From Candidatus Bipolaricaulota bacterium (lineage in GTDB: Bacteria; Bipolaricaulota; Bipolaricaulia; RBG-16-55-9): 7,589 nt of DNA. The notes below the pieces were generated by a model, which ran no database searches, was not told the DNA's origin, and worked only from the letters and a program-made list of their open reading frames with translations. Position numbers and translations under genes: made by a program. Position 1 is the first letter of the stretch. Each line of letters opens with the position of its first letter. The stretch is from the NCBI GenBank assembly GCA_018609825.1, contig JAHEOA010000155.1, forward strand, positions 1 to 7,589. The letters run 5' to 3'. Positions 3,768 to 4,732 of this stretch are shown here, one piece after another.

Positions 3768-3781
3768 ACGCCCCGTGCCGG

Positions 3782-3802
3782 CGTCGGCCCCCAGGCCCGA
3801 CG
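3782..3802 (+). terminator. GC-rich hairpin after tsaD, possible terminator
   Basis: CGTCGGCC (3782-3789) can pair with GGCC-C-GACG (3794-3802), giving 8 pairs with one bulged C and a CCCA loop. It begins 15 nt after the tsaD stop. There is no T tract, only the AT-rich stretch from 3808. It could slow or end tsaD transcription before it enters the DnaA-box region. Confidence 0.35.
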
Positions 3803-3807
3803 GCTGC

Positions 3808-3838
3808 ATATAGAAATTGAAACTCAATTCAGATATTC
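3808..3838. other. AT-rich left flank of the origin, candidate unwinding element
   Basis: By hand count 24 of these 31 bases are A or T (77%), against a strongly GC-rich surround. It contains a small inverted repeat, AATTGA (3815-3820) and TCAATT (3824-3829). It lies 16 nt outside the first exact DnaA box of the left array. Confidence 0.5.
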
Positions 3839-3853
3839 ACTTGGGGAAAACCC

Positions 3854-3919
3854 TGTGGAAAACCTTGTGGACAACCTGTGGATAACCGCCGCCGAGCTGT
3901 GGATAACCCTTGTGGAAAA
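3854..3919 (-). other. Left DnaA-box array, five exact boxes
   Basis: Five boxes read TTNTCCACA on the - strand: 3854-3862 (TTTTCCACA), 3866-3874 (TTGTCCACA), 3877-3885 and 3898-3906 (both TTATCCACA) and 3911-3919 (TTTTCCACA). Start-to-start distances are 12, 11, 21 and 13 bp, near one or two helical turns, so all could face the same side of the DNA. A degenerate copy (TGGGGAAAA, 3842-3850) extends the array toward the AT-rich flank. Confidence 0.88.
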
Positions 3920-3936
3920 GCGACCCGCGGCGTTTT

Positions 3937-3964
3937 CCCCAGCGCCTGTCCACAAGCGCTGGGG
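3937..3964. repeat. Central 9-bp perfect inverted repeat
   Basis: CCCCAGCGC (3937-3945) and GCGCTGGGG (3956-3964) are exact reverse complements. The 10-nt loop holds CTGTCCACA (3946-3954), a DnaA box with one mismatch. The repeat sits between the two opposed arrays, about the centre of the box region, and could extrude as a cruciform or bind a dimeric protein. Confidence 0.75.
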
Positions 3965-3977
3965 ATGGCTCCACAGC

Positions 3978-4041
3978 TTTTCCACAGCGTTGTCCACAGG
4001 CACGTGTCCCTTCCCTTGCGGACAGAAGCGAGTTTTCCACA
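3978..4041 (+). other. Right DnaA-box array, three exact boxes
   Basis: Exact boxes on the + strand are 3978-3986 (TTTTCCACA), 3990-3998 (TTGTCCACA) and 4033-4041 (TTTTCCACA). Weaker copies precede them: CTGTCCACA at 3946-3954 and GGCTCCACA at 3967-3975. A CACGTG palindrome (4001-4006) lies in the gap between the second and third exact boxes. The orientation is opposite to the left array, so the boxes of the two arrays point away from each other toward the two AT-rich flanks. Confidence 0.85.
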
Positions 4042-4055
4042 GGACATCCGGCCCC

Positions 4056-4070
4056 CTACAACAACTACAG
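4056..4070 (-). other. DnaA-trio-like triplet run
   Basis: The + strand reads CTA CAA CAA CTA CAG. The complement read 3' to 5' is therefore GAT GTT GTT GAT GTC. Known DnaA-trios are 3'-GAT-like triplets repeated after a box and a GC-rich spacer, leading into the unwinding site. Here the last box ends at 4041, a GC-rich stretch follows (4042-4055), then the triplets, then an AT-rich core at 4076-4084. Only two of the five triplets are exact GAT, so the match is partial. Confidence 0.4.
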
Positions 4071-4103
4071 GACGGAATATATATGGCCAGTCGTCCCTGT
4101 AGT
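4064..4103. repeat. 11-bp imperfect inverted repeat around an AT-rich core
   Basis: ACTACAGGACG (4064-4074) pairs with CGTCCCTGTAGT (4092-4103) with one bulged C. The loop contains AATATATAT (4076-4084). The arms overlap the trio-like run. It may be part of the unwinding region or an intergenic RNA hairpin; no T tract follows. Confidence 0.6.
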
Positions 4104-4141
4104 GTCGTGACCCGAGCGGCGTGGCGGCGTGGCCCCGAGCG

Positions 4142-4170
4142 TTGTTCCCCCAGCAAAGGTGGCCTACAAT
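4142..4170 (+). promoter_or_regulatory. Promoter of dciA, leaderless
   Basis: TTGTTC (4142-4147), a 17-nt spacer and TACAAT (4165-4170) form a good sigma-70-type promoter. The predicted start of transcription is about 4177, at or next to the ATG (4178-4180), so the mRNA would be leaderless. No Shine-Dalgarno sequence is present. The promoter begins 100 bp after the last exact DnaA box, so origin-bound DnaA might affect it. Confidence 0.65.
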
Positions 4171-4177
4171 TCACTCA

Positions 4178-4732
4178 ATGGACGCGTCCCAAATCTCCCT
4201 GTCCGACCTGCGAGCTTTCTTTCGCCGCGAAGGTCTCGACGACGCCTTCGAGGAGCAGGCGCCCATGCTCGTCTGGTTCCAGATCGCCGGCGAGCAGATG
4301 AACCGCCTGACTCGCCCGCTTCGGGTGCGTGGCGACACGCTCTACGTGGAAGTCGCCAACTCCGTGGTCGCCCAGCAGCTCAACCTGCTCAAAGACGACT
4401 ATCTGGAGCGCATCAACGCGCGACTCCAGGATCGTCGGTTGACGGATCTGCGCTTCCGGGTCGGTTCGTTCAAGCCCCCCGCTCGCGACGACGCGGTTGA
4501 CCTGGAACAGCTCGATCTCCTCAAGTCGGGGGAACTTCGGGAAGCACTGGACGACGTTGACGATCCCGAACTGCGGAAAGTCTTTGAGCAATGGGTGCTG
4601 ACCAACGCCCGCATCGACCGGCGCCGCGAGATCGCGGGCGGCCGCGAATGCCCCGACTGCGGAATCCATCACGAGGAGTCGACCGATCTCTGCTACTTCT
4701 GCAAACTGGAACAGGGATACGATCCGGCATGA
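4178..4732 (+). CDS. dciA: DUF721/DciA-family protein with C-terminal zinc ribbon, probable helicase loader
   Basis: This 184-residue protein has a DUF721 (DciA) domain at about residues 20-110. It shows the family pattern of a conserved tryptophan (MLVWFQIAGEQMNRLT), a short strand (GDTLYVEVANSVVAQQL) and a helix ending in YLERIN. DciA is the replicative-helicase loader or operator found in most bacteria that lack DnaC/DnaI-type loaders. After an acidic helical stretch (about 120-155) comes C158-x2-C161-x10-C172-x2-C175, a four-cysteine zinc ribbon that is not in the best-studied DciA proteins; it may bind DNA, the helicase or another partner. The ATG at 4178 is chosen because it follows the -10 element directly; an in-frame extension upstream to 4121 would lie before the promoter. 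The gene abuts the putative origin, which fits the proposed role. Its stop overlaps the GT4 start (ATGA). The family call rests on motif reading. Confidence 0.8.
   Translation: MDASQISLSDLRAFFRREGLDDAFEEQAPMLVWFQIAGEQMNRLTRPLRVRGDTLYVEVANSVVAQQLNLLKDDYLERINARLQDRRLTDLRFRVGSFKPPARDDAVDLEQLDLLKSGELREALDDVDDPELRKVFEQWVLTNARIDRRREIAGGRECPDCGIHHEESTDLCYFCKLEQGYDPA

Follow-up and report, generated by a model that had tools for sequence, protein, structure and literature searches.

A mirror-symmetric DnaA-box array upstream of dciA is a probable chromosomal replication origin in Bipolaricaulota

The intergenic region between tsaD and dciA in the 7,589-nt stretch of DNA analyzed here (hereafter the window) is, with high confidence, a chromosomal origin of replication (oriC) that would be opened by DnaA; this confidence does not extend to the second-strand step discussed below. 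We favor this reading because the cluster of DnaA boxes is beyond chance, the frame in which the boxes are set is kept in seven origins, and the same gene order is found in three relatives. The initial annotation of the window had proposed the oriC of the host chromosome, in a lineage whose dnaA lies away from it, and the conserved frame, the gene order, and the occurrence of the boxes in single clusters in relatives support this as the best reading. A DciA profile (9 rows) searched against species genomes returned two loci, L001 from Candidatus Fraserbacteria RBG_16_55_9 (genome G001) and L002 from a Bipolaricaulota bin (genome G002), both with a box cluster directly upstream of dciA. As judged from the similarity of DciA and TsaD, rather than from a species tree, the window most likely belongs to the phylum of these two genomes, the Bipolaricaulota. 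Its nearest counterparts by DciA (P0001, P0002, P0003, and P0006) share 79-87% identity with it in that protein.

All genes in the window are on the plus strand, in the order amidohydrolase, nucleotidyltransferase, hpt, tsaD, a 410-bp gap, dciA, glycosyltransferase, hslV, and hslU, as assessed by open reading frames and Pfam matches (for hpt, hslV, and hslU, the short names rest on Pfam and on gene order). The gap with the proposed oriC (3768..4177, no strand assigned) extends from the stop codon of tsaD (PF00814, 2733..3767, plus strand) to the ATG of dciA, the helicase operator gene (PF05258, 4178..4732, plus strand), and this context is kept in three relatives, G063, G064, and G065. Open reading frames and Pfam confirm that the gap holds no credible gene. 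Neither dnaA nor recF was found by Pfam among the eight window proteins scanned, and there is no tRNA in the window. A plasmid origin was rejected, there being no similar DNA in the plasmid collection and the neighbors being housekeeping genes. An RNA element was likewise rejected in the absence of a match at Rfam gathering scores, and weak miRNA/sRNA matches (E 0.011 to 0.31, with bit scores far below cut-offs) were taken as chance. A candidate dciA promoter, TTGTTC-17 bp-TACAAT, was read by eye at 4142..4170 (plus strand), with the ATG seven bases downstream; a stricter promoter scan found none in the window. By eye, a TACAAT or TAAAAT hexamer also precedes dciA in five relatives, with TTGNNN ∼17 bp upstream (window 4142-4178; L001, L002, L006, L007, and L008). 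Hexamers so near the start of dciA suggest a leaderless or short-leader transcript.

The gap carries eight of the nine exact TTNTCCACA matches in the window, as initially counted, at 3854, 3866, 3877, 3898, and 3911 on the minus strand and at 3978, 3990, and 4033 on the plus strand. This is far above chance, since 200 dinucleotide-preserving shuffles of the whole window gave a mean of 0.06 matches and 2 at most. The ninth match (2363-2371) lies inside hpt, outside the cluster, where there is a single exact TTATCCACA. The "about four near-copies" reported earlier correspond to sites at 3842, 3933, and 3946 (one mismatch each) and 3967 (two mismatches), which brings the total to twelve. These sites are arranged as two half-arrays of divergent orientation, with one further box to the right. 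The left half-array (3842..3919, minus strand) consists of six sites, at 3842, 3854, 3866, 3877, 3898, and 3911, with gaps of 12-12-11-21-13. The right half-array (3933..3998, plus strand) consists of five, at 3933, 3946, 3967, 3978, and 3990, with gaps of 13-21-11-12 that mirror those of the left half. This mirror symmetry of box spacing was overlooked in the initial annotation, as was a trio array just past the last box. The central inverted repeat noted there is present (3936-3965), but it is off the dyad center of the array (about 3926). It was rejected as a conserved core because the spacers are not conserved.

The same twelve-site frame is found in six relatives with gaps equal to within 1 bp, i.e. 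12-12-11-21-13 on the left, 22 across the center, and 13-21-11-12-43 on the right. This count of twelve includes places filled with two or three mismatches (two in G001, one in G002, two in G063, and one in the window). Counted from the rightmost box, site positions in the window, G001, G064, and G065 are −191, −179, −167, −156, −135, and −122 on the left, and −100, −87, −66, −55, −43, and 0 on the right, with five pairs at exact mirror positions; some offsets in G002, G063, and G049 are shifted by 1 or 2 bp. When the G001 frame was slid over the window, 11 of the 12 sites were matched with at most one mismatch at zero shift, compared with at most three at other shifts within 150 bp. Spacing is conserved whereas spacer sequence is not: between the window and G001, G064, and G065, boxes are 83-86% identical and spacers 46-51%. 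The frame lies directly upstream of dciA in five of the six relatives. Importantly, conservation of the boxes in relatives that keep the tsaD-dciA order, a check proposed initially, is what we find in G063, G064, and G065, where the same frame lies between the two genes. Five other genomes (G052, G055, G056, G057, and G059) have a related mirrored array, whose last box is 87-89 bp, not 43, from the rightmost box. The gap before that box contains AT-rich and palindromic stretches in these genomes (GACCGGTC type in G052 and G056).

To see where dnaA and dciA sit relative to such clusters, we surveyed a phylum set of 100 genomes, defining a box pair as same-orientation boxes ≤15 bp apart. A dciA match was found in 79 genomes, a box pair in 53, and a DnaA C-terminal domain in 87; dnaA and dciA are less than 3 kb apart in 66 of the 75 genomes in which both were found. 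Among the 53 genomes with a box pair, it is within 2.1 kb of dciA in 36, within 2.1 kb of dnaA in 36, near both in 31, and near neither in 12; the first three figures favor the oriC reading and the last counts against it. Exactly five genomes (G001, G002, G063, G064, and G065) have a box pair near dciA but no detected dnaA nearby: G001, G064, and G065 carry dnaA on a contig other than that of the box pair, and the search for the DnaA C-terminal domain found no match in G002 or G063. These five relatives bear out the earlier proposal of a lineage in which dnaA is not next to oriC. Elsewhere in the phylum box clusters usually adjoin dnaA; from the window's origin dnaA has left. The Fraserbacteria dnaA (L170, G001:C14:38000-50000) is among genes that, by eye, seem unrelated to replication, and its reading frame has a run of unknown bases. 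Four contigs (G074:C21, G098:C170, G099:C17, and G100:C67) have regions that resemble bipartite origins: two box clusters are separated by about 1.7 kb, and DnaA C-domain matches fall between or next to them. In G074 both the cluster and the dnaA domain occur twice, possibly through assembly duplication.

The location of the cluster directly upstream of the candidate dciA promoter would also suit a DnaA-titration or regulatory site that is not an origin, either datA-like or a DnaA-regulated dciA promoter. We consider this very improbable on several grounds. The array and dciA are on different contigs in G049, G052, G055, G056, G057, and G059, and in the last five the mirrored array is on a contig other than both that of dnaA and that of dciA. 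The array is therefore not strictly tied to either gene, and this speaks against a role confined to dciA regulation. Furthermore, genome-wide matches to the same-orientation box pair all fall in a single cluster in each of the 11 relatives that have a mirrored TTNTCCACA array, and the array has the box-spacer-trio anatomy described below. Finally, on a 370-kb contig of G052 the cluster (258.5 kb) is near the cumulative-skew minimum (254 kb).

Support from GC skew for an oriC is partial, as it is supportive in the G052 clade and mixed in the window's own. At the cluster, skew is negative on the left and positive on the right in G052, G055, G056, and G057, and positive on the right in G059. In the window's clade, right-side skew is positive in G001 and G002 and negative in G049 (−0.035), with no switch in G063 (+0.018/+0.021) or in G065 (+0.011/+0.020, on a short contig). 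The window itself, though too short for a verdict, shows no skew minimum at the cluster. For the single large contig of G073, sampled skew (20 stretches of 20 kb, i.e. 400 of 1726 kb) displays a local dip, not its minimum, at the dnaA-dciA locus, which is weak and uninformative.

The rightmost box is followed by what resembles a basal unwinding system, or BUS, whose published rule demands a box with ≤2 mismatches, a spacer of ≤16 bp, and ≥3 triplets with a middle adenine (NAN), according to PMC8287927. The BUS box TTTTCCACA (4033..4041, plus strand), 43 bp after the last array site, has one mismatch to the standard TTATCCACA, within the limit of two. A 14-bp GC-rich spacer (4042..4055, no strand), again within the published maximum, separates it from the near DnaA-trio array GAT GTT GTT GAT GTC (4056..4070), which reads 3′-5′ on the minus strand and whose GTT triplets lack the middle adenine. 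Next comes the AT-rich core AATATATAT (4076..4084, no strand), a candidate melting point. A trinucleotide repeat starting with 3′-GAT-5′ at 13-14 bp past the BUS box, then an AT-rich core, is found in all 13 mirrored origins, which were chosen for their array or trios, several of them by the trio feature itself. Eight of the 13 pass the rule of at least three NAN triplets, whereas the window, G002, G061, G064, and G065 fail it because of 3′-GTT-5′ triplets. Judging by its sequence, the window element would work like a BUS, yet it is not a BUS by the published rule. Pelliciari et al. (PMC8287927) suspected that deviant trios lacking the middle adenine exist, and Bipolaricaulota-type origins with GTT are natural candidates for these.

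Of the AT-rich flanks reported initially, the left one holds up: it is 78% AT (3808..3840, no strand), lies beside the outermost minus-strand site, and has counterparts of 69-78% AT in 7/7 origins compared. On the right, the AT content of the 20-bp core is 70-90% in six relatives but reaches no more than 55% in the window, although we counted an AT-rich element beside the boxes as present. Together with the trios that fail the NAN rule and a far arm that is not significant (below), this composition speaks against the oriC reading. By eye, a TTGAG..TCAA-like stretch recurs in the left flank (window 3808-3840 and the same place in L154, L156, L168, L169, L099, and L158), possibly a site for a protein or a second melting element.

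On the far side of the AT-rich core, the relatives carry a second trio array, which is on the opposite strand and faces the first. We measured it as the far run, the longest run of T(A/T)G triplets within 60 bp starting 42 bp past the BUS box. With the motif defined on the 13 origins before testing on them, far runs summed to 35 over these origins, compared with a mean of 15.3 and a maximum of 23 in 2000 shuffles. When one of each close pair was dropped (10 origins), the sum was 28 (mean 11.8, maximum 18); same-sense triplets in the far zone sum to 9. In the window, the far arm is degenerate (CTGTAGTGTCGTG, 4097..4109, plus strand), with a run of 1 (P 0.88, not significant), as also in G057, while G001, G063, G049, and G059 have runs of 2, none significant singly. 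As controls we took 15 other-clade genomes at first and later every one with a box-plus-trio match, 25 in total; the far run was 1 in 25/25, with a far zone that in most of these genomes is dciA coding sequence and thus not neutral. Outside the 13 and the 25, far runs were seen in G070 (2) and G020 (3), which the box-plus-trio pattern did not pick up; in G020 the far half is within the first dciA codons and may therefore be chance. By a count made by eye, a phylum-wide scan for CTACWAC...GTWGTAG matched at 34 loci, spread over 29 of the 100 genomes; 11 of them coincide with a box cluster or neighbor dnaA (G002, G020, G049, G052, G055, G056, G059, G061, G064, G065, and G070); it missed the origins of G001, G063, and G057. 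A reversed-pattern control matched more often genome-wide; the pattern in itself is thus not rare, and location is what counts.

What the far array does is a matter on which three readings have to be weighed. Tentatively, and with the odds against it, we propose that two clades combine a mirror-symmetric DnaA array with facing trios, where DnaA rather than a DnaD-type protein would mark the two strands and so place both helicases with DciA. GTT and GAT would then belong to a code broader than the middle-adenine rule, and the window's far arm would be decaying or reduced to a pairing arm. Alternatively, the origin may be asymmetric as in B. subtilis, the near trio alone being at work and the second strand being served by another element or protein, such as a DRE-like site, a contact through DnaA domain I, or the AT-rich flank on the left, to which we give somewhat less than an even chance. 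It would account for the degenerate far arm of the window and the AT-rich left flank in all seven origins. In addition, inward DnaA boxes beyond the far arm are no better than in shuffled sequence in any of the 13 origins (2-4 mismatches at best), which leaves no second complete BUS, and with far runs of only 1 in every other-clade control, bidirectional replication there must manage without a far array. Against an asymmetric origin stand the far array, which clearly exceeds chance in two clades, including at origins without a neighboring dciA, and the far runs of G070 and of G020, the latter with the caveat of its coding position.

A third possibility, which we regard as rather unlikely, is that the facing arms form a hairpin or cruciform in the unwinding element and were selected for pairing, not for two-strand DnaA binding. 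Indeed, the window arms pair (4064-4074 with 4092-4103) despite the weak trio repeat, and when the DNA of 8 of the 13 origins was folded, G002, G064, G065, and G052 were well below shuffles (z −4.1, −3.5, −4.3, and −5.5, respectively). There is little or no fold signal in G001, G063, G049, and the window (z 0.2, −0.1, −0.8, and −1.4), however, and the first three of these keep far runs of two triplets, albeit not significant singly. Similarly, own arms are slightly better matched than swapped ones (P 0.04 with 12 origins, P 0.066 with 10), but the pairing of swapped arms is only a little poorer (9.4, versus 10.5 for own arms).

Under the oriC reading favored here, initiation would proceed as follows. 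DnaA would fill the six left sites, the five right sites, and the BUS box, whose layout is directly visible, and a DnaA filament starting from the BUS box would cross the 14-bp GC-rich spacer onto the minus-strand trios. By analogy with the BUS model, the AT-rich core would then melt, after which DciA, made from the adjacent gene, would aid loading of the replicative helicase, as its family suggests. In the relatives, far trios might capture DnaA on the second strand and thereby allow loading of both helicases. This is the most speculative step, and second-strand capture is least certain in the window because its far arm is weak.

An oriC as such is ordinary; what makes this one a variant is the mirrored spacing, the deviant trios, and, in relatives, the facing trio array. 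The closest parallel to its unwinding element is the BUS of B. subtilis, with which the window shares an exact box, a spacer (14 bp in the window, within the maximum of 16 in PMC8287927), a trinucleotide repeat from 3′-GAT-5′, and then an AT-rich core. The window differs by its GTT triplets and failure of the NAN rule, and the relatives by a facing second array. Two oppositely oriented box arrays are known from E. coli oriC (five plus five; PMC10316083), but in the window the spacing is mirrored (13-21-11-12 each side) and the BUS box is 43 bp outside one half. The same paper describes the eTrio of Thermotoga maritima oriC, unwinding-element TAG triplets needed for DnaA binding and opening; these repeats are described on one strand, whereas in the Bipolaricaulota relatives trio arrays on both strands face each other. 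Helicase loading on the second strand is called unclear in PMC10201434, which proposes for B. subtilis a DnaD element (DRE) in the unwinding region that directs the second helicase. The DRE is the complement of the same trios, read by DnaD, unlike the separate inverted trio array found here across the core in a DciA lineage. As for gene order, dciA is beside origin genes in a dnaA-dnaN-recF-dciA-gyrB operon (PMC5109545), and G061 has dnaA-oriC-recF-dciA, but the window has oriC-dciA, with neither dnaA nor recF among the eight proteins scanned. In the literature on trios or Bipolaricaulota oriC, no title or abstract opening among the matches listed describes a mirrored array, deviant trios, or facing trios.

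If far trios act on the second strand, a DciA lineage would make second-helicase loading testable on DNA scaffolds, and the mirror-image layout of sites may help explain the bidirectional launch of copying. The loci also offer a means to locate oriC in a phylum known mostly from fragmentary genomes.

One genome, G061, has variant boxes. Ten sites in a near-identical frame are all exactly TTNTGCACA, without a single TTNTCCACA in 6 kb, and TTNTGCACA pairs occur in the G061 genome only in that one cluster. This uniformity is as expected if one protein, DnaA, reads all sites. The array (L193, G061:C30, boxes at 3886-4041 and facing trios at G061:C30:3781-3824) lies between dnaA and recF, followed by dciA, recF being assigned by an SMC/RecF-type Pfam match and position. 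Across 13 DnaA helix-turn-helix segments compared, G061 alone has an arginine where the other twelve have a histidine (motif MHA). Together with the TTNTGCACA boxes, this arginine points to a possible specificity switch, a correlation in one genome, and with strong boxes that are all TTNTGCACA, G061 may represent a natural experiment in DnaA-box coevolution. The same position is a tyrosine in PDB chain 3pvp (M. tuberculosis) and thus varies anyway.
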